This document shows positions 53,703 through 64,000 of a stretch of 64,000 bases of DNA, piece after piece (position 1 is the stretch's first letter; each line of letters starts with the position of its first letter). Source of the stretch: Nitrospira sp. (GTDB taxonomy: Bacteria; Nitrospirota; Nitrospiria; Nitrospirales; Nitrospiraceae); the NCBI GenBank assembly GCA_035968315.1, contig JAVYIN010000007.1, positions 1-64,000 of the forward strand, read 5' to 3'. The translations under genes and the position numbers were made by a program. The notes beneath the pieces are model-generated. The model was given only the letters and a program-made list of their open reading frames with translations. It did not search any database and was not told the DNA's origin.

Positions 53703-54980
53703 GTGTCTAATCTCGAACATTTTCAACAGTGCGATGTCGCGATCGTCGGGGCCGGTGCCGCCGGTTTGGCTGCGGCCATTTTCGCCGGGGAGGCTGCGCC
53801 ACGTTCTGATCCACGCCGCATCGTACTGCTGGATGGCGCGAAGACCCTCGGGGCCAAGATCTTGGTCTCCGGAGGCGGCCGCTGTAACGTCACGCACGAT
53901 GAAGTGTCGCCAAACGACTTCTTTGGGAATCGGCGCATCATCAAGAACGTTCTCGCCGCGTGTTCTGTCGAGGAGACGATCCAGTGGTTTGCCTCCATGG
54001 GCGTCGAACTCAAGCGTGAAGAGACCGGCAAGCTCTTTCCCGTGACCGATAAAGCCAGAACCGTTCTCCATGCGCTGGTCGAGCAGTGCCGCGCGCTCGG
54101 TGTGAGCATGTGTCCGAACCATCGAGTCGAGCGCATTGAGCGCAGGTCGGGAGCGGACGAGGGGTTTGCGATTCATCATGGGCAGGGAACCCTCTTTGCG
54201 AAGAAGGTGATTCTGGCCACCGGAGGCCGGTCTATCCCGAAGTCGGGGAGCGATGGATTTGGCTACGAACTCGCCCGACAGCTAGGACATCATGTCACGC
54301 CGACCGTTCCTGCGCTGGTTCCACTTGTGCTGGATGACCGCATGTTTCAGAAAAACCTTTCCGGCCTCTCCCAGGAGGTCGAGCTAACAACAATGGTGAA
54401 CGGGAAACTCGTTGATGCACGAACGGGGAGCTTGCTCTGGACGCACTTCGGCATCAGCGGGCCGGTCGTGATGGATGCCAGCCGCTTCTGGTGTCTGGCT
54501 CGCGAGCAGAAAGATCCAGTGGCGGTCTACGGCAACTTTTTCCCGGGTCACACACAAGAGGATGTGCGGGAATGGTTCATCGAGCAGACGCGGGAGCACC
54601 CCCGACGCTCACTGGTCAAGACGCTGGCCCAACGGCTTCCCCAACGATTTGCCGAATCCCTCATCCAGTACGCGGGCTGCGACGGCCAGATCGCTAGCGC
54701 TCAATTGCCACGGAAAGATCGAGACCATCTTCTCCCTCTGCTGACGAAGTTTCCCTTTCCCATCGTGCAGGATCGCGGATGGAACTATGCCGAAGTCACG
54801 GCCGGCGGAGTGCCGCTCGAAGAGGTCAACTTTCGGACGATGGAATCCAAGCTGGTGCCGGGACTCTATTTTGTCGGAGAGATTCTCGACTGCGACGGCC
54901 GCATCGGGGGCTTCAACTTTCAATGGGCCTGGACGACGGGCCGGCTGGCGGGACAGGCTGCCATGAGCGAGCGGTCATGA
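53703..54980 (+). CDS. HI0933/YhiN-type flavoprotein (aminoacetone oxidase family)
   Basis: The 425-residue FAD protein begins with the dinucleotide motif VAIVGAGAAGLAAAIFA and has the family signature GAKILVSGGGRCNVTHDE. Further marks are VILATGGRSIPKSGSDGFGYELA and the C-terminal FVGEILDCDGRIGGFNFQWAWTTGRLAG. The physiological substrate is unknown. GTG 53703 is the likely start; the ribosome binding site is weak. Its 3' end overlaps the convergent TPR-peptidase gene by 6 bp. Confidence 0.9.
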   Translation: MSNLEHFQQCDVAIVGAGAAGLAAAIFAGEAAPRSDPRRIVLLDGAKTLGAKILVSGGGRCNVTHDEVSPNDFFGNRRIIKNVLAACSVEETIQWFASMGVELKREETGKLFPVTDKARTVLHALVEQCRALGVSMCPNHRVERIERRSGADEGFAIHHGQGTLFAKKVILATGGRSIPKSGSDGFGYELARQLGHHVTPTVPALVPLVLDDRMFQKNLSGLSQEVELTTMVNGKLVDARTGSLLWTHFGISGPVVMDASRFWCLAREQKDPVAVYGNFFPGHTQEDVREWFIEQTREHPRRSLVKTLAQRLPQRFAESLIQYAGCDGQIASAQLPRKDRDHLLPLLTKFPFPIVQDRGWNYAEVTAGGVPLEEVNFRTMESKLVPGLYFVGEILDCDGRIGGFNFQWAWTTGRLAGQAAMSERS

Positions 54981-56555
54981 GCGGCTCGGCGTCATCGATG
55001 AGCGGTAGGTCTGTTCCCATTGGCGTTGAAACTGGTCATAGGACACTGAGAGCTTCTGCTGCATCGCGGCGTCGATCGCCTGTCCGGTTGCCAGCACATT
55101 GATGACCTGGCGTACTCCATACATGCTGTAGCGGTCGAGAAGATGCTGTGTGGCTGATCGGGCTTCACGATAGGCGCTCTGACGAGCGTCGTCCGTCAGC
55201 TGGATCCACTCTCCTTGTAATGACGGTAAGGGAACGAACGCGCCGGCTTGCTGTCCGCCTTCGTCGAGGTCTGGCCACGGGTCTTCCGTGAGTTGCAGGG
55301 CCAGGCCTTCGAGGAGCCAATGGGGCACGGCGGCAACGGCACCTTTGACATGCTCGAAGAGCAAGGCATGGACAAATTCGTGACGGGCGATGCGGCTAAG
55401 GATGGCCAAATCTTCAAGGGCTCCCTGCGTGGGAAGGTGAATGGTTCCCGATGAGCGGTCGAAGAGGGTATCGGCCCATGCCGGAGTGCCTGCCGTGCTG
55501 GCAAATTTTTGAGCGGTATGGAGCACGACGGTGATGGGTTTCGATGGGACATGTCCGAATTTCTGTGTCAGTTCGTCGTGGGCATATTCCAGAATCGCGC
55601 GCATCTGTGTCCCGATGGTCTGGTCCGCAGGTCCATCGAATTGAATGATGAAATGAGCCGTGCTTGACCGGGGAGGCTGGGGTGGTGGTGTCGCAGGAGA
55701 CGGTACCGTGGCGGTGGGTGTGCGGCTGGCTGTGTTCGAAGCCATGACGGGAACGGACGAAGCCGCAGTCGTTCGAGCGTTGTCCGGCTGTGTGGAGGGC
55801 GGGGGCTGGACGGTTTGTGCCGCCGCAGTGGTTACTAGTTCACTCTTGGGAATCTTGGCGAGCAACTTTCGCAAGTACGACTGATTGTTGGGATCGCGTT
55901 CCGCTCGTGTACGAACCAGATCCAGGTGTTTCGCCGCCAGACTGGCATTTCCCTTAGCCAGCAGAAGGTCGGCGAGCGCAAGATGGGGAAACGGGTCTTG
56001 TGGGGCGAGGCGAATGACGGTTTCCAAGAACTGCGGCGTCATGGCCGGATCACGCAGCTCCCAGTAGGCCTGGGTGAGGTTGAGGTGCGCCAGGGGATTG
56101 GAGGGATCCCAGGAAACCGCCTGCTTAAAGGCCTTGACGGAGAGGGCGGTGCCGCCGAACTTTTCCTGCTGGATGCCGAGATTGTTCCAGAGGCCTGCAA
56201 TGTATTGCCGCGTTGGCACGTGTGTGAGTTTCTTGTGGGAGAGGGCTTTCAGCTGCGGCTCGACGCCACCGTAATTGCCCCTGTCGAGTTCGTCGCGAAT
56301 CTTCTCGAGCGTCGAATCCGGCGCCGGACCAAGTTCGACCAATCGGGATGCCGGTACATCCCAGGTCGGATTCTTCTGCTGGCCTGGGAAGGTCAGCGCT
56401 GACGTTGGTGATGCGGATGTTGTCGTTGACGCAGGGTCTGCAGCCGGTTTGGGATCGAGGTAGGCGGGCTTCAGCCAGACCTGGTATCCGACAAAGAGCA
56501 GCAACGCCACGGCAAGAAGGGTGAGCGTAGAAGTGATATTGCGTTGATACCTCAC
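54975..56555 (-). CDS. Membrane-anchored TPR protein with a gluzincin (peptidase MA-like) domain
   Basis: The 526-residue protein has one N-terminal membrane helix, a proline/serine/threonine-rich linker, a TPR region (about 75-240) and, after another low-complexity linker, a metallopeptidase-like domain. The zinc motif HEFVH (about residue 392) is followed by LLEGLALQL, giving the HExxH...E pattern of gluzincins. It is the last gene of the three-gene operon with the 27-heme cytochrome. It could mature or assemble cytochromes (inference). Confidence 0.8.
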   Translation of the reverse strand: MRYQRNITSTLTLLAVALLLFVGYQVWLKPAYLDPKPAADPASTTTSASPTSALTFPGQQKNPTWDVPASRLVELGPAPDSTLEKIRDELDRGNYGGVEPQLKALSHKKLTHVPTRQYIAGLWNNLGIQQEKFGGTALSVKAFKQAVSWDPSNPLAHLNLTQAYWELRDPAMTPQFLETVIRLAPQDPFPHLALADLLLAKGNASLAAKHLDLVRTRAERDPNNQSYLRKLLAKIPKSELVTTAAAQTVQPPPSTQPDNARTTAASSVPVMASNTASRTPTATVPSPATPPPQPPRSSTAHFIIQFDGPADQTIGTQMRAILEYAHDELTQKFGHVPSKPITVVLHTAQKFASTAGTPAWADTLFDRSSGTIHLPTQGALEDLAILSRIARHEFVHALLFEHVKGAVAAVPHWLLEGLALQLTEDPWPDLDEGGQQAGAFVPLPSLQGEWIQLTDDARQSAYREARSATQHLLDRYSMYGVRQVINVLATGQAIDAAMQQKLSVSYDQFQRQWEQTYRSSMTPSRS

Positions 56556-56593
56556 GTGATCGTTCCTTCAGTTCCGTCACAGGTCGCGCGTCA

Positions 56594-58585
56594 TCACGGC
56601 CGGCCGCGAAAGACTCCGGTGCCCGGTTTCATCGTTTTCCACAACGTTGTTTCATGGCAGCGCTCACATTGCGAGCCAAAACTGCCTTCGTGTTTGTCGT
56701 CCTTCTTGTGACAGCTGACACAGGCCGACGAGGATTTCACTTTCTTATCCATGCGCTCCGTATGGCAGGCATAACAGTCGAGCCCTTTGTGTCCGCCATC
56801 CAGTTTGAAGGTCGTCCTGCGATTGTGGTCGAAGTCCCACAATTTCCAGTCCCGCAGGCTGTGGCAGTCCTGGCATTCTGTCCCCAATTTGCGCCGGTGG
56901 ACATCTTCGCTCTTGTGGCAGGCATAGCAGGCGGCCGGTGTCTTGTCCTTATAGAGGCGGCCGGTGTGGCAACTCTCGCAGGCTGTTGTGCGGTGCCTGC
57001 CGAGGAGGGGGTATGTGGTGTCGCGGTCATGGTCGAAGGCGATCGCTTTCCAAGTCTGCTCACCATGGCACTTGTCGCATGTCTCGCCGAAGTTCGACCG
57101 GTGGACGTCGTCTTTCTTATGGCAGGCCGCGCAATTGGTCGGGGTCTTGTCTTTGTAGAGCATGCCGGTATGGCACCGGTCACATTTCGTCTTACGATGA
57201 TAGCCTTTCAGGAGATATGCGGTATCCCGATCGTGCGTAAAGAGCAGGATGTTCCACTCGCGTTCCGTGTGACAGCGCTCACAGCGGTCGCCATACCGCC
57301 CTTTGTGTGGGTCGTCTTTCTTGTGGCAGGTCGCGCAATCGGTCGGGGTCTTGTCTTTGTACAGGTGCCCCTTATGACAGGACTCGCATTTCGTAGCGAG
57401 ATGTCGTCCACGCAGAGGATAGCGTGTGTGTAAGTCGTGGTCGAAGGTGATGGTCTTCCAGTCACTCTCCGCATGACAGGCGGCACATTTCTCTCCGTAG
57501 GCTCCTTTGTGTGTGTCGTCTTTCTTGTGACAAGCGTAACAATCAAGCGGGGTATCTTTAAACGCCGGCGTCAGGTGGCACTCCTTGCATTCCACGGCCG
57601 CATGCTTTCCCATCAAGGGGAAGCGCGATTTATTGTGGTCAAACGGAGCTTTCTTCCACGACCGGTCGTTGTGGCACTCCTCGCATTTGGTGCCTTCCTG
57701 CCCTTTGTGCTTGTCGTCCTTCTTATGGCACGAATAGCAGTCTAGCGGGGTGTTTTGATAGCGGTCGTTCGCATGGCAGTCTTTGCAGGCGACCTCCGCG
57801 TGCTTGTTACGGAGTTTATACCGGGTTGTGTCGTGATCGAACCGAATCTCTTTCCAATTCCGATCGGCATGACAATCGGCACATCCCGGTCCCGCCTTCC
57901 CTTTATGCTTGTCGTCCTTCTTATGGCAGGAGTAACAGTCTAAGGGCGTGTCTTTATAGCGGTTGTTGGCATGGCAGTCCTTGCAGGCGACTTCCGCATG
58001 TTTGTTGCGAAGTTTGTAGCGGGTCTTGTCGTGGTCGAACCGGATGTCTTTCCATTGCAGGTCCGTGTGGCAGTTGTTGCACGCCGTTCCGGCTTTCCCG
58101 TTGTGCTGGTCGTCCTTCTTATGGCAGCCGAAGCAGTCTGATGGGGCCTCGCGATACTTGGTCTTGGATTTGTGGCAGGACTTGCATTCGACTTTCTTGG
58201 CATTGGCATGGGCGCCTCTGAGCCGGAAATCCGTCCGCTCATGATCGAACGTCTGTTCGGTCATCGGGGCGATATTCTCCGTCCGGCCTTTGTGCTCTGT
58301 ATGGCAGTCTTTGCAGGCCCGTTGTTCTTGGAATCGCCCGTGCAATCCTTGTTTGGCGTCGACATCCTTCCGCACGTCTTTGTGGCACTCGAGGCAGAGC
58401 GTGGTTTGAGCCGCTTTATCGAACCGCTTGTGGCATTTAGTGCAGTCTTCTTCCCATTTGGCATGGCCCTCGATCACCTGGCCCGGCATGAGGGCAGTTT
58501 CGACCGTATCGGCCCATGCGTCACCGCAGAGGACCGCCCAGAGTCCCAGGGTCAGAATGAGAATGTGGCGAATGCAAGCCTGCAC
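56594..58585 (-). CDS. 27-heme c-type cytochrome
   Basis: The 663-residue exported protein has a signal peptide (LILTLGLWAVLCGDAWA) and 27 CXXCH heme sites by direct count. From about residue 150 it repeats a 66-residue unit with three hemes, centred on CYSCHKKDDKHKG, a tryptophan and FDH, and extra histidines placed to serve as distal ligands (bis-His coordination). It starts at GTG 58585, 15 bp after the upstream membrane gene. Very long heme chains of this kind carry electrons over nanometres in the periplasm or outside the cell. Confidence 0.93.
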   Translation of the reverse strand: MQACIRHILILTLGLWAVLCGDAWADTVETALMPGQVIEGHAKWEEDCTKCHKRFDKAAQTTLCLECHKDVRKDVDAKQGLHGRFQEQRACKDCHTEHKGRTENIAPMTEQTFDHERTDFRLRGAHANAKKVECKSCHKSKTKYREAPSDCFGCHKKDDQHNGKAGTACNNCHTDLQWKDIRFDHDKTRYKLRNKHAEVACKDCHANNRYKDTPLDCYSCHKKDDKHKGKAGPGCADCHADRNWKEIRFDHDTTRYKLRNKHAEVACKDCHANDRYQNTPLDCYSCHKKDDKHKGQEGTKCEECHNDRSWKKAPFDHNKSRFPLMGKHAAVECKECHLTPAFKDTPLDCYACHKKDDTHKGAYGEKCAACHAESDWKTITFDHDLHTRYPLRGRHLATKCESCHKGHLYKDKTPTDCATCHKKDDPHKGRYGDRCERCHTEREWNILLFTHDRDTAYLLKGYHRKTKCDRCHTGMLYKDKTPTNCAACHKKDDVHRSNFGETCDKCHGEQTWKAIAFDHDRDTTYPLLGRHRTTACESCHTGRLYKDKTPAACYACHKSEDVHRRKLGTECQDCHSLRDWKLWDFDHNRRTTFKLDGGHKGLDCYACHTERMDKKVKSSSACVSCHKKDDKHEGSFGSQCERCHETTLWKTMKPGTGVFRGRP

Positions 58586-58600
58586 GGGTAATGGTCCGGG

Positions 58601-59527
58601 TCAATACATGTACACGGCGATGATATGAAAGATCGTGCTCGCCGCGAGGAGATAAATCAGTGGAATGTGGAGGATATGCCAGAGCGAGAAAATGCGCTCG
58701 TAGGTGGTGAACTCAGCGACTCGCTCGGCTTCCCGGAGATAGCGGTTGGCGAGGTGCAGCGCGTCCTGCGCGCCTCCAGGAAATTCGGCCGATCGTTCAC
58801 GTCCTAAAATCGATCGCAACTCTTTCCCGCAGCGGAAGGAGCACAGACGCCGTTTCCACCCGAGCGCGGCCACAGACCACCACATCGTGATGGCGGACCG
58901 TTCCACATGATTGGCCTCGCGCTCAAAGGCCGTGAGCCATTGTTCCACCCGTGGAGCCCTATGAAAACGAGACCGCATGTCATCGGCCTGGCAGGCGAAT
59001 TCCTGCTGCACTCGTTCCAGCGTCGCGCGACGGCCATACAAGCCATAGTGGATCTTGGTATACACAAAGCGCCCGATCACCCCGCTGGCAACCATGATGA
59101 GCATGCTGATGAGCGCGATGGTGGCATTCAGCGACCGCAAATGAAACGTGGAGTGAAAGAGAATGAGCGCAGGGCCCGCGATGCCCATGATCATATGCCA
59201 GCGAAACCAATTCTTCAGCGCCCCCCATCGATGCAGGGCTCGCACATGCTTCCGCAAAGGATACAAAAGCATGGCCAGCATCGTGACGGATCCGCCGACG
59301 CCCAAGTAAAAACCGAAAGCGGAGCGCGGGGTGTAATACTTGCCGGTGGCGACTTTATAAGCGAGCCAGGCCAAGAGGCTCAACACGACCAAGGCCAGCA
59401 GCGGGTTGAGAAGGGAGAGGCCATCAGGTGTCGAGTTTCTGTCAGGCCTGGATTCAGGCTCTGTTGGCGGGCGAGAGGAGTCAATCGATCGTGGCAGTGG
59501 TTTTCTGATGGGTTCGGCAACGGCCAT
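58601..59527 (-). CDS. Multi-pass membrane protein with paired histidines, candidate b-type cytochrome/quinol partner
   Basis: The 308-residue protein has about five membrane helices after a proline-rich N-terminus. Helix 3 contains RWHMIMGIAGPALILFHSTFH and the last helix LWHILHIPLIYLLAASTIFH, so several histidines lie at heme-ligand distances, as in ferric-reductase-like or NarI-like proteins. A soluble insert (about 160-270) has two cysteines (CSFRCGKEL). It heads the operon with the 27-heme cytochrome and could feed it electrons from quinol. No exact family is recognised. Confidence 0.78.
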   Translation of the reverse strand: MAVAEPIRKPLPRSIDSSRPPTEPESRPDRNSTPDGLSLLNPLLALVVLSLLAWLAYKVATGKYYTPRSAFGFYLGVGGSVTMLAMLLYPLRKHVRALHRWGALKNWFRWHMIMGIAGPALILFHSTFHLRSLNATIALISMLIMVASGVIGRFVYTKIHYGLYGRRATLERVQQEFACQADDMRSRFHRAPRVEQWLTAFEREANHVERSAITMWWSVAALGWKRRLCSFRCGKELRSILGRERSAEFPGGAQDALHLANRYLREAERVAEFTTYERIFSLWHILHIPLIYLLAASTIFHIIAVYMY

Positions 59528-59600
59528 GCTCTGTCATTCCTCGTGCAGGGTGCCTATCACAGGCTGTGAAGTAGAAGGGACACGGGTTCCCCCGTAAGCA

Positions 59601-59616
59601 AGCAACTCTCGCGCCG
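59601..59616 (-). promoter_or_regulatory. Candidate sigma-54 promoter for the membrane protein/27-heme operon
   Basis: The minus strand reads CGGCGCGAGAGTTGCT: GG and GC separated by exactly 10 bp, with TTGCT perfect at -12 and two mismatches to TGGCACG at -24. Predicted start 59590, about 63 nt before ATG 59527. Confidence 0.45.
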
Positions 59617-59634
59617 TCCCTCCACCGATTCCCG

Positions 59635-59701
59635 TTTCTGAGCAAGGAAAGAGACTCTCTCGCCGCATGGTGTAGGGGCGAGGGAACATCTTGTTCAGAA
59701 A
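59635..59701. promoter_or_regulatory. Inverted repeat between the divergent sigma-54 promoters (possible activator sites)
   Basis: TTTCTGAGCAAG (59635-59646) and CTTGTTCAGAAA (59690-59701) are inverted copies matching at 11 of 12 positions, centres 55 bp apart. Relative to the two predicted starts the arms fall at about -50 and -105 (minus) and -168 and -113 (plus), a range compatible with enhancer-binding-protein sites. Confidence 0.45.
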
Positions 59702-59782
59702 TCGTATAGCTTCACCTGCTTGTCGTACCGGGTGTAGTCGCGTCTCGTGCATCAATTCAATGTTTTAGAGGATCGATTGGAA

Positions 59783-59797
59783 TGGTACGCCCTTTGC
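59783..59797 (+). promoter_or_regulatory. Sigma-54 promoter of the 21-heme cytochrome gene
   Basis: TGGTACGCCCTTTGC matches TGGCACG-N4-TTGC with one mismatch; GG and GC are separated by exactly 10 bp. Predicted start 59809, giving a leader of about 105 nt. Confidence 0.6.
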
Positions 59798-59808
59798 GTA
59801 AGCACATT

Positions 59809-59864
59809 TGGGATTGATTTCCCATTCATTTATCTTGCTGCGCGCTAGTGGGATAATATTCCCA
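59809..59864. promoter_or_regulatory. Pair of TGGGA-N6-TCCCA palindromes
   Basis: TGGGATTGATTTCCCA (59809-59824) and TGGGATAATATTCCCA (59849-59864) share identical 5 bp arms and AT-rich cores; their centres are 40 bp apart, close to four helical turns. The first begins on the predicted sigma-54 start, so a bound protein could block transcription. The cognate regulator is unknown. Confidence 0.6.
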
Positions 59865-59913
59865 ACATAGTAAATCGGCAAGCATTCTCAATCGTTCAGC
59901 CTCATTGGCCTGT

Positions 59914-61761
59914 ATGGAGCTTATGAACGGACAGCAACAAAGCCCCAAGGAAGCCAGAAAATGGCCCGGAATTGTCCTGGTTCTGGGCGCGTTTCTCTTA
60001 TTGGCGGGCCTTATGCAGCCGGGCGGGGCAGAGGCACAGGGGAGCAACCGTACGGATGTAGAAATCGATCATGGCGCAACGGGATTTCCCCTGACCGGCG
60101 GCCATGCGCAGGTCCAGTGTCAGCGCTGTCACCTGCAAGGCATCTTTCGTGGAACGCCGACACAGTGTATGCAATGCCATTCACCTGGTGGACGAGTCAC
60201 GTCCACATTTAAGCCCGCGAACCACCTGCCCACCACGGTGAATTGTAATAGCTGTCACAGGACCACGAACTGGAAACCAGCGTTCTTTACCCATAATGGC
60301 ATTGCGCCGGGCACCTGCTCGAAGTGTCATAACAACAGTATTGTTCAAGGAAAGCCTGCGACCCATATTCCGACAGCCATGTCGTGCGACAGCTGCCATC
60401 GAATGGTGGGATGGATCGGCGCGGCCTTTAAGCATCTCGGGGTGGTGCCAGGCAGTTGCGCCACCTGTCATAACGGAGTGCAGGCTCGTGGGAAGCCGGC
60501 CACACACATGTCCACGACGGCTTCGTGCGACAGCTGTCACAGACTGGGTGGAGCGAATTGGGTGCTGGTATCGAGCGGTTACAATCACTCCGGTGTTGTT
60601 CCGGGCACCTGTGCCACCTGTCACGGAAGAAATGCGACCGGCATTCCTGTTACCCACAAAGGTGGGACGAATGTAGCCATTGCCTGCGACAGCTGCCACC
60701 GGACAACCGGGTGGCGGCCGGCGACGATGAACCACACGGTGGTGGCGGCAACGCCCTGCTCAACCTGCCACAACAATACGCTGGCCCGTGGGATTCCTGC
60801 CGGCCATAGGGCGGGGATGACGCCGGGGACCTGCAACAGTTGTCACTCGACCGTGGCGTGGATTCCGGCGACGATGAACCATGTGGGCGTGGTGCCAGGC
60901 ACCTGTGCGACGTGTCATGGCAGAACAGCGACGGGCATACCCGTTTCCCACAAAGGCGGCACTAATACGGCATTGACCTGCGACAGCTGCCACCGGACAA
61001 CCGGGTGGCGGCCGGCGACGATGAACCACACGGTGGTGACGGCGACGCCCTGCTCAACCTGCCACAACAATACGCTGGCGCGGGGCATCCCGGCCGGGCA
61101 CAAGGGCGGGATGACCCCGGGCGCCTGCAATACCTGTCACACGACGACAGCGTGGATTCCGGCAACGTTCAATCATACGGGGGTGACGCCGGGCACCTGT
61201 AATACCTGTCATGGCGTGACCTCGACGGGGATCCCGGCGAATCACAAAGGGGGGACCAATCTAGGGATCTCCTGCGACAGCTGCCACCGGACAACCGGCT
61301 GGCGGCCGGCGACGATGAACCACACGGTGGTGACGGCGACGCCCTGCGCCAACTGTCACAACGGAACGTTAGCGACAGGCAAATCCGGCAGCCATTTTAT
61401 CACGACGCAAGCGTGCAACAAGTGTCATGGGAATACCACGGCGTGGACGCCGGTCACGGCCTACACGCATCTCTCTCCCTATTACAAGGCGCATCGGTCT
61501 GGCGTACTCTGCAGCGCCTGTCATACGACGAATAACGAAGCGATTGCATGGAAATATGCCGCCTACAAACCAGACTGCGCGGGATGTCACGCCGGTGATT
61601 TTAAGCCGACGGCTCATAAGAAGGTTGACTCACCCGTTATCTACTACACGGTCACGGAGCTCAAAGATTGTTCGGGCAGTTGTCATTTATATACGGACTC
61701 GACCTTTACCAAAATCAAGACGAGCCGTACGGGACAACATCGACCTACCGGTAGCTTCTAA
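59914..61761 (+). CDS. Multiheme c-type cytochrome with 21 CXXCH sites and one CX3CH
   Basis: About 615 residues. A hydrophobic signal (IVLVLGAFLLLAGL) is followed by a chain of 21 CXXCH sites and, near the C-terminus, one CSGSCH (CX3CH). The core is built from 98-residue, four-heme units containing CDSCHRTTGWRPATMNHT, CSTCHNNTLARGIPAGH, CNSCH and CATCH. The tryptophan after each CDSCHRTTGW and the NH histidines are conserved, as in octaheme-like cytochromes. ATG 59914 or 59923 is the likely start. It precedes an outer-membrane barrel gene, suggesting a porin-cytochrome conduit. Confidence 0.92.
   Translation: MELMNGQQQSPKEARKWPGIVLVLGAFLLLAGLMQPGGAEAQGSNRTDVEIDHGATGFPLTGGHAQVQCQRCHLQGIFRGTPTQCMQCHSPGGRVTSTFKPANHLPTTVNCNSCHRTTNWKPAFFTHNGIAPGTCSKCHNNSIVQGKPATHIPTAMSCDSCHRMVGWIGAAFKHLGVVPGSCATCHNGVQARGKPATHMSTTASCDSCHRLGGANWVLVSSGYNHSGVVPGTCATCHGRNATGIPVTHKGGTNVAIACDSCHRTTGWRPATMNHTVVAATPCSTCHNNTLARGIPAGHRAGMTPGTCNSCHSTVAWIPATMNHVGVVPGTCATCHGRTATGIPVSHKGGTNTALTCDSCHRTTGWRPATMNHTVVTATPCSTCHNNTLARGIPAGHKGGMTPGACNTCHTTTAWIPATFNHTGVTPGTCNTCHGVTSTGIPANHKGGTNLGISCDSCHRTTGWRPATMNHTVVTATPCANCHNGTLATGKSGSHFITTQACNKCHGNTTAWTPVTAYTHLSPYYKAHRSGVLCSACHTTNNEAIAWKYAAYKPDCAGCHAGDFKPTAHKKVDSPVIYYTVTELKDCSGSCHLYTDSTFTKIKTSRTGQHRPTGSF
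60685..61360 (+). repeat. 294-bp intragenic tandem repeat encoding four-heme units
   Basis: Near-identical blocks begin at 60685, 60979 and 61273 with TGCGACAGCTGCCACCGG, an exact 294 bp period (98 codons). The third copy is complete only for its first part and then diverges. Nucleotide-level similarity, including third codon positions, points to recent duplication or gene conversion. Confidence 0.8.
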
Positions 61762-61765
61762 ATTT

Positions 61766-61802
61766 CCAGGGAGAGGCTTCCAGAGAGGGAGCCTCTCCCT
61801 GG
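61766..61802 (+). terminator. Perfect 13-bp stem-loop between cytochrome and barrel genes
   Basis: CCAGGGAGAGGCT (61766-61778) and AGCCTCTCCCTGG (61790-61802) are perfectly complementary around an 11 nt loop, starting 4 nt after the cytochrome stop. No T-run follows, so partial termination, RNA processing or mRNA stabilisation are all possible. Confidence 0.55.
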
Positions 61803-61829
61803 CCCATCGTTCACACTCTAGGGGAGCGT

Positions 61830-64000
61830 GTGTTGCGGGTCAGCTATTCCAGCGGGTGGCGTCTTGTGGTGTGGGGGCTGTTCCTCGTGGGACTGCTGGC
61901 CGTCTCATGTGTCGCGGCGCCTGATTCTGCTTCTGCCCAGGTCCTTGATCGCATCGAGATCGTCGAGACACCCGGGGTGGCCGAGATTCACATTGTGTTC
62001 AATACCCGCGCGCTGTATTTGCGTCACACTCCGTCTGAAAAGGGCGATCTCATCAGGATCTTCCTCGACTTTCCAGATCTTGATCGATCCAGAAGGTTTG
62101 CGCGGGAACTGGCGGCCTCGCCTCCAAGCGATCTCGTGCCGAAGTTCTCGGTCACCTTTCCCGATCAGGCCACGAACGGCCTCTCGATTCGATTCGACAA
62201 GCCGGTTCGGTTTCGAATCAGCCAGCGGGATATGAGGAGCGCCAGCCGCATCGTCATCGCGGTCAAGTTGGATCGGCCGGTTCTCCCGCCGCCGGCTCCA
62301 CCGGAAGTGAACAGGCCGCCGGCCATCGCGCCGGCAGCCAAGGGGCCGAAGCAGACTTTCGATATTCCACCGTTTCAGGCGGGGACAGATATTGAAACAT
62401 ATGCCGAGGATCTCATGGCCTTGGGGCGTGCCGCACAGGCGGCCGAAGAATATGAGAAGGCGGTCATGATTTATAATGCCGCGCTTAATCTTCCGCCAAA
62501 CCGGCAATCCCGCGAGGCGCAAGAAATGATCGGAGTGGCTCGGGAGCAGACCGGGGATATCGGCAAGGCCAAGGCCGAGTATGAACATTATTTGAAAATC
62601 TATCCCGACGGGGAAGGCGCCGTGCGGGTGCGGCAACGAGTTGCGGCGCTGGCGGATCTTCAGCAGGCCATTGCCCAGGGCAAGGTGAAGAAGCCGGCGA
62701 AGAAGATCGACGAAATGCGCGTCTATGGCAGCATATACGAATATTATTATGGCGGCTATTCGCAGACGAAGATTACGGACAAGACCGCCAATACGACCAC
62801 GAAATTCAATCAGCAGGATCAGTCGATGCTGCAGTCCGCATTTGACGTCACCGGCCGGTATCGGAAGGACGAATACGATACCAAAATCGTCGTGCGGGGC
62901 ACCCAAACCTACGACCTCTTAGCGGACACAGAGGTGCGGCGCAATGTCAACCGTCTTCGTGCCATGTATCTAGAGCATTCCAGCCAAGATTCGTATTTCT
63001 TCCGTGTGGGCCGCCAGCCTGGTAACACGGGTGGGGTGCTCGATTTTCGATTCGATGGAGTGTGGGCACGCTATACGGCGGTTCCGCAGTTCCTGAATCT
63101 CAATCTGATCGCGGGCCAGCCAAGGCAATTCAGTCTTAGCTCGAACTATGTGCCCGACGATCCGCGAAATTTCCGCGCGGATGTAAAACGCTATTTTTAC
63201 GGTGCCAATGTCGATATCGGGCCTTTGGGGCAGGCCTGGAGCGGAAATGTCTACTATATCAATCAGATGGTGAACGGCGTGGTCGATCGCCGTGCGGTGG
63301 GGACCGAGGTGCGCTATGCTTCGAACGGCAAGAATGCGTTTGGCCTGGTCGACTACGATGTGTCCTATGGGGTGCTCAATGTGGCGATGCTCAATGGCAG
63401 CTGGGTGACTGAAGGCACCACCGTCACGGTCCTGGCTGACCATCGCAAAACGCCCTATCTGCAGACGACCAATGCGCTCTACAGTGTGCCGGGCGCCTCC
63501 CTGGATCATATCAATTCCACCAACGCGGATTTGTTGCGGGCACAAGCCGCCGCCGTGACGGCGACCAGCGATCTGTTCATGCTCGGCATGCTCCGCGCGG
63601 TCACGACGCAATGGCAAGTGGGCGGAGATGTCCGTCTCAACCGCATATCCGGAACCGGACAGTCGAATTGTTTGGTCATTTTGCCGGGGACGAGCACCCT
63701 CTTCCTCAATCCGAATGCGACGACGGATGCGCCCTGCACCTTGCAAGCTCTTCCCGGGACTGGCAATATCTGGACCTATACCGCACAGGCGATTGGCGCG
63801 AATTTTCCGTTCGAGAGCACGACGTTCGTGGCCAATGCCAGTTACATCGCAAGCCCGGCCTACCGCGGCCAGTCGCTGACGCTCAATACCTTGGCTCGGT
63901 TGGGGCCGCAGTGGCAGTTCGACACGTTCGTGATTTTGTATCACCAAAAGGATGACCTTCACGTTGAGTTGTATCGTGTCACGCCGACGATCCGGATGGA
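61830..64000 (+). CDS. AMIN-TPR-beta-barrel outer-membrane protein (3' end outside window)
   Basis: An open frame runs from GTG 61830 (or TTG 61833; GGGGAG at 61821) to the window end, at least 723 residues. A signal segment (LVVWGLFLVGLLAVSCVA) precedes an AMIN-like domain (about 38-145, IEIVETPGVAEIHIVF), a proline-rich linker, a TPR region (about 188-285) and then alternating hydrophobic strands rich in tyrosine and aspartate (from about 300), typical of a large outer-membrane barrel. No heme motif is present. It follows the cytochrome by 69 bp and is likely its outer-membrane partner. Confidence 0.75.
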   Translation, partial: MLRVSYSSGWRLVVWGLFLVGLLAVSCVAAPDSASAQVLDRIEIVETPGVAEIHIVFNTRALYLRHTPSEKGDLIRIFLDFPDLDRSRRFARELAASPPSDLVPKFSVTFPDQATNGLSIRFDKPVRFRISQRDMRSASRIVIAVKLDRPVLPPPAPPEVNRPPAIAPAAKGPKQTFDIPPFQAGTDIETYAEDLMALGRAAQAAEEYEKAVMIYNAALNLPPNRQSREAQEMIGVAREQTGDIGKAKAEYEHYLKIYPDGEGAVRVRQRVAALADLQQAIAQGKVKKPAKKIDEMRVYGSIYEYYYGGYSQTKITDKTANTTTKFNQQDQSMLQSAFDVTGRYRKDEYDTKIVVRGTQTYDLLADTEVRRNVNRLRAMYLEHSSQDSYFFRVGRQPGNTGGVLDFRFDGVWARYTAVPQFLNLNLIAGQPRQFSLSSNYVPDDPRNFRADVKRYFYGANVDIGPLGQAWSGNVYYINQMVNGVVDRRAVGTEVRYASNGKNAFGLVDYDVSYGVLNVAMLNGSWVTEGTTVTVLADHRKTPYLQTTNALYSVPGASLDHINSTNADLLRAQAAAVTATSDLFMLGMLRAVTTQWQVGGDVRLNRISGTGQSNCLVILPGTSTLFLNPNATTDAPCTLQALPGTGNIWTYTAQAIGANFPFESTTFVANASYIASPAYRGQSLTLNTLARLGPQWQFDTFVILYHQKDDLHVELYRVTPTIRM

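Follow-up and report, generated by a model that had tools for sequence, protein, structure and literature searches.

PCC3, a predicted porin-cytochrome cluster known by bioinformatics, consists, according to the passages that define it (He et al., 2017; PMC5566968), of a porin, a periplasmic multiheme cytochrome (MHC) with 21, 24 or 27 hemes, a second, extracellular MHC that is rich in Ser, Thr, Ala and Gly and variable in heme number, and an inner membrane protein (IMP) of ~300 aa carrying two WX3HX13H motifs and an SGXXG motif. Its descriptions so far come from iron oxidisers and further Proteobacteria (PMC5566968; PMC10734462), many Gallionellaceae among them (PMC10734462), and authors have termed it functionally unverified (PMC12442390). 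On Fe(II), Sideroxydans ES-1 down-regulates both its PCC3 clusters (PMC8788666). In the proteome of this strain, the score of one extracellular PCC3 cytochrome is 0 throughout (PMC12016527).

The locus considered here lies at the end of a 64,000-nt stretch of DNA from a Nitrospira sp. (contig JAVYIN010000007.1, positions 1-64,000; the window), for which a preliminary description had proposed five genes in two divergent operons. All five ORFs are found in place. On the minus strand, a TPR protein with a peptidase-MA-like C-terminus (54975-56555), a periplasmic-type cytochrome with 27 CxxCH motifs (56594-58585) and an inner membrane protein of 308 aa, termed memb (58601-59527), share an operon, ORFs and motif counts agreeing with that description. 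Beyond an intergenic region of 377 bp (59528-59904), the plus strand encodes a second multiheme cytochrome (59905-61761) and an outer-membrane barrel protein (61830-64000), whose gene crosses the window end and stops at contig position 64133. A simple promoter scan gave fewer sites than shuffled sequence did.

The preliminary description did not recognise this set as a described system. We reject an undescribed system, since the set agrees feature by feature with PCC3, a cluster already in the literature (He et al., 2017; PMC5566968; PMC10734462): here too there is a porin, an S/T/A/G-rich second MHC, a periplasmic MHC of the 21/24/27 type and an IMP with two motifs. Every PCC3 feature tested is found, and by its sequence the locus would fall into this class, as assigned from the described features rather than from comparison with the Sideroxydans proteins. 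It differs in that the host belongs to the Nitrospiraceae, the cytochrome and barrel genes diverge from those of memb and the 27-heme wire, ccm genes and a TPR/peptidase-like gene are adjacent, the barrel protein carries beta and TPR domains, and there is a ferredoxin-flavoprotein partner that the passages defining PCC3 do not name (He et al., 2017; PMC5566968). The kind of system is known, and its presence in a nitrifier family, or in Nitrospira at all, is without a report in the open-licence literature that we searched, hence the absence of such a report is unproven. The feature-by-feature match supports the reading as an electron conduit, and the locus probably encodes a Nitrospira porin-cytochrome system of the PCC3 type, whose path would lead from the quinone pool through memb, the 27-heme wire and the barrel with the second cytochrome to the outside.

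Other systems are less similar. MtrCAB, MtoAB and PioAB also combine a barrel with multiheme cytochromes across the outer membrane, but theirs are decaheme cytochromes of another family, MtoB and PioB have 24-32 predicted strands as opposed to 22 here, and the quinol module is a different one (CymA in ES-1, PMC12016527). Indeed, the proteins P0004 and P0002 score 81 and 21 bits against the DmsE/MtrA-family decaheme model TIGR03508, the cut-off of which is 192. The PCC_1 of Ca. Manganitrophus likewise pairs a porin with a multiheme cytochrome in a member of the Nitrospirota, but it is of a porin-dodecaheme type reported only from Manganitrophaceae (PMC9040806) and is set apart here by its description.

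The cytochromes, the membrane protein and the barrel

The 27-heme cytochrome, which has a signal-peptide-like N-terminus, is built of nine triheme c7-type modules of ~67 aa each; it matches the Pfam family Cytochrome_C7 (E 1e-37), and its sole PDB sequence match is 3ouq (E 2e-4). Triheme c7-like modules in tandem also make up GSU1996, the dodecaheme c7 nanowire of Geobacter, which has 12 rather than 27 hemes and is not known to belong to such a cluster. The second cytochrome, again with a signal-peptide-like N-terminus, carries 21 CxxCH motifs and one CX3CH motif, which bears out the 21-22 hemes counted before, with one heme per ~24.5 residues within its repeats. The two proteins contain 57 and 45 His, respectively, sufficient for proximal and distal ligands, and 27 and 21 CxxCH in regular repeats together with these His are not due to chance. 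The residue-to-heme ratios, 24.6 for the 27-heme protein and 29.4 for the second cytochrome, lie within the range of 22-39 reported for PCC3 (PMC5566968). Likewise, the 27 CxxCH motifs of the first agree with the ~21-27 hemes of a periplasmic PCC3 MHC, and the second, with its many hemes, low ratio and a content of Ser, Thr, Ala and Gly of 41%, fits the 'extracellular' PCC3 MHC.

Across the named loci, the heme number of the periplasmic wire is quantised by three, and that of the second cytochrome is not. For the former, 58 of the 60 frames that look complete have a heme count that is a multiple of three, in most cases 21, 24 or 27. L080, one of the two exceptions, is probably a frameshift, as its 7 and 14 hemes add up to 21, and L019, entered among the 58 with 9 hemes, also appears split (9 + 15). 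For the second cytochrome, any heme number up to 54 occurs.

The motifs described for the ~300-aa IMP of PCC3 are all present in memb (W107-x3-H111-x13-H125, S148-G-x2-G152 and W283-x3-H287-x13-H301), their residues are invariant in an alignment of eight sequences from four families, and the whole signature recurs in 61 of 65 homologues. An AF2 model (pLDDT 85.8) has membrane-type helices at 40-60, 70-86, 104-125, 133-160 and the end of 253-307. Read from these helices, there are five transmembrane segments with the WX3HX13H motifs in the third and the fifth, as in PCC3. No known fold could be assigned: Foldseek gave no PDB hit at E < 0.001, and in VIA-align helical bundles dominate (cytochrome b561 with Z 7.4 and an rmsd of 3.3 over 108 residues), so that the structure searches yield no clear relative and it is the motif that underlies the assignment as a b-type diheme protein. 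On this basis memb is predicted to be a quinone-linked diheme b-type inner-membrane protein. In one Nitrospirota family other than that of Nitrospira (frames L017 and L018), memb has an apparent N-terminal extension that is long, repetitive and rich in Ala and Pro.

Since the window cuts the barrel gene, the barrel was modelled from an orthologue with 80% identity to the window protein (L021; pLDDT 79.6). The model comprises a beta domain (38-145), TPR helices (188-283) and 22 strands (294-766), and its PDB neighbours are outer-membrane barrels (E ~1e-10), so the outer-membrane beta-barrel of a PCC3 cluster has its counterpart in this orthologue. Of the AMIN-TPR-barrel proposed earlier, the TPRs, which Pfam detects, and the barrel hold; an AMIN domain was dropped for lack of a Pfam match, the N-terminus being modelled as a beta domain nonetheless. 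It is conceivable that such a protein is a pore for polysaccharide or protein export, as are BcsC or AlgK/AlgE, and that its cytochrome neighbours are accidental, for the TPR-plus-barrel architecture is that of such pores and the structural neighbours of the model include BcsC, AlgE and FimD. However, no glycosyltransferase or usher partner gene occurs at the loci examined, and the genes conserved next to the barrel encode cytochromes and a redox membrane protein, which makes an export pore highly improbable.

Synteny and distribution

A search of 148 Nitrospirota genomes located the barrel in nine, the window genome included. The preliminary description would have been undermined by barrels standing elsewhere without cytochromes, but all eight with enough flank adjoin memb and both cytochromes, and the ninth begins at a contig end. 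Scanning with the memb alignment yielded 80 loci, of which 65 were treated as true homologues and L084-L098 were set aside as distant paralogues next to small cytochromes. The 65 loci span Nitrospira, other Nitrospirota, Nitrospinaceae (Nitrospinota), Myxococcota, Omnitrophota and Alpha-, Beta- and Gammaproteobacteria. They comprise a barrel in 41 cases, a ferredoxin-flavoprotein in 49 and two or more cytochromes in 54, many of the absent genes falling beyond contig ends. The recurrent set is memb, a cytochrome with 18-33 hemes, a second multiheme cytochrome, the barrel and the ferredoxin-flavoprotein, and part of the same layout is seen in the betaproteobacterial homologues L042, L048 and L059. 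Outside Nitrospira these genes usually follow one another in the same direction as memb, wire, second cytochrome and barrel; in Nitrospira they are split into two divergent operons and the TPR protein is added. Synteny across at least five phyla strengthens the reading as a quinone-linked trans-envelope conduit. It is possible that the multiheme proteins instead store electrons, as a capacitor or periplasmic redox buffer, and that the outer membrane is not crossed. The very large number of hemes would suit such a store, and one Nitrospira genome (L028) is a real exception in that it keeps memb and cytochromes with 24 and 10 hemes without a barrel within 8 kb. Yet 41 of the 65 loci have the barrel in synteny, as do all eight informative Nitrospirota barrel loci, and contig ends cut several of the remaining loci; we regard an electron store as quite improbable.

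Among the loci examined, the TPR/HExxH gene is an accessory of Nitrospira only. Close full-length copies (E < 1e-100) occur in 19 genomes of the family, namely the 17 that carry memb and two in which the copies sit at contig starts; paralogues of ~40-50% identity are present in most of the family. The HExxH motif noted before is indeed there in the window protein (HEFVH), which matches Pfam TPR and, below the cut-off, Peptidase_MA_2 (E 0.0033), but it is not conserved, as HQxxH replaces it in 9 of 17 orthologues (L019-L037) with both His retained. We therefore discarded an active metalloprotease, and a scaffold or metal-binding role would be more likely than proteolysis.

Within the 117 genomes of the family that were sampled, memb is found in 17, amoA in 26 and both in seven, so that comammox Nitrospira are among the carriers, and most PCC3 carriers of the family have nxrA. 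A link between PCC3 and comammox as a rule was rejected, given that amoA is present in only 7 of the 17 carriers and absent from the window genome. The 11-contig assembly of that genome, at 99.97% completeness, contains no amoA, nxrA or nxrB, and its molybdopterin oxidoreductases (PF00384) are one formate dehydrogenase and two NuoG-like proteins only. Possibly, the absence of amo and nxr is an assembly gap, since two loci with identical memb (L020 and L024) differ in nxrB content. A more radical scenario is that the window lineage, in which UBA6493 and perhaps S2bin.15 would be included, lacks NXR and AMO through loss and lives mainly on extracellular donors via PCC3, as a non-nitrifying, electron-eating Nitrospira; we consider this unlikely. 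All 20 Nitrospira rows group in a single clade of a memb tree, with Betaproteobacteria as the nearest relatives (100/97) and other Nitrospirota lying elsewhere. This position would fit lateral transfer of the PCC3 memb, the midpoint root leaving donor and direction unshown. Plasmid carriage was discounted, with one remote hit only.

Proposed electron path, direction of flow and neighbouring genes

A trans-envelope conduit, as put forward in the preliminary description, remains the best reading, supported by the PCC3 match and the synteny, while its 'complete path' comes from architecture, from which we infer every electron-transfer step, the protein locations and the direction of flow. The diheme b-type inner-membrane protein would exchange electrons with the quinone pool and pass them to, or take them from, the 27-heme wire, whose nine triheme modules could cross the periplasm. 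There the wire would meet the outer-membrane barrel, the TPR and beta domains of which may face the periplasm, and the small-residue-rich cytochrome with 21-22 hemes would take the path on to the cell surface.

Just past the window end (C7:64118-71088), out of view of the preliminary description, the barrel gene is directly followed by ccmABCDEFG, a ccmH-like reading frame and ccmI, and the products of these adjacent genes may attach the hemes. Next comes a gene whose product combines a pyridine-nucleotide flavoprotein domain with two 4Fe-4S motifs, the ferredoxin-flavoprotein that accompanies 49 of the 65 named loci (L019-L083) and that probably connects NAD(P)H or ferredoxin in the cytoplasm to the same redox pool. 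It is also seen with PCC3 in L016-L018. The clusters of two other families have something else in its place, a Rieske-type protein in L014 and another FAD oxidoreductase in L015.

Electron uptake from an extracellular donor, such as a reduced metal, humics or another cell, appears slightly more likely than outward flow. Perhaps, however, the conduit runs outward and Nitrospira dumps surplus electrons on Fe(III), Mn(IV), humics or partner cells at low oxygen. The same hardware works both ways, the conserved cytoplasmic ferredoxin-flavoprotein could supply the electrons, and the PCC3 carriers of the family, most of which encode NXR and 7 of 17 AMO, thus have other donors and possibly a need for an extra sink. 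The sequence holds nothing that sets the direction, and PCC3 is best known from iron oxidisers, which speaks against outward flow; we view it as a tentative alternative. Nitrospira drive nitrite oxidation and complete nitrification, and if the conduit reading is true, some nitrifiers, comammox included, could exchange electrons with minerals, humics and other cells. Two features offer concrete handles on the predicted function of PCC3, namely the conserved ferredoxin-flavoprotein and the quantisation by triheme units.

For the ccm genes, the comparison covered the window genome and the loci L012, L013, L019-L037 and L136-L137. They adjoin the barrel in the amoA-negative Nitrospira tested (the window genome, L019, L021, L024, L031 and L034), and ccmA-H are absent or a remnant at PCC3 in three amoA-positive Nitrospira (L025, L029 and L037). 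A comammox genome without PCC3 (G145) encodes, near its amoA, a CcmF that is 86% identical to that of the window genome. Finally, in L053, a betaproteobacterial locus, ccm genes likewise lie within 10 kb.
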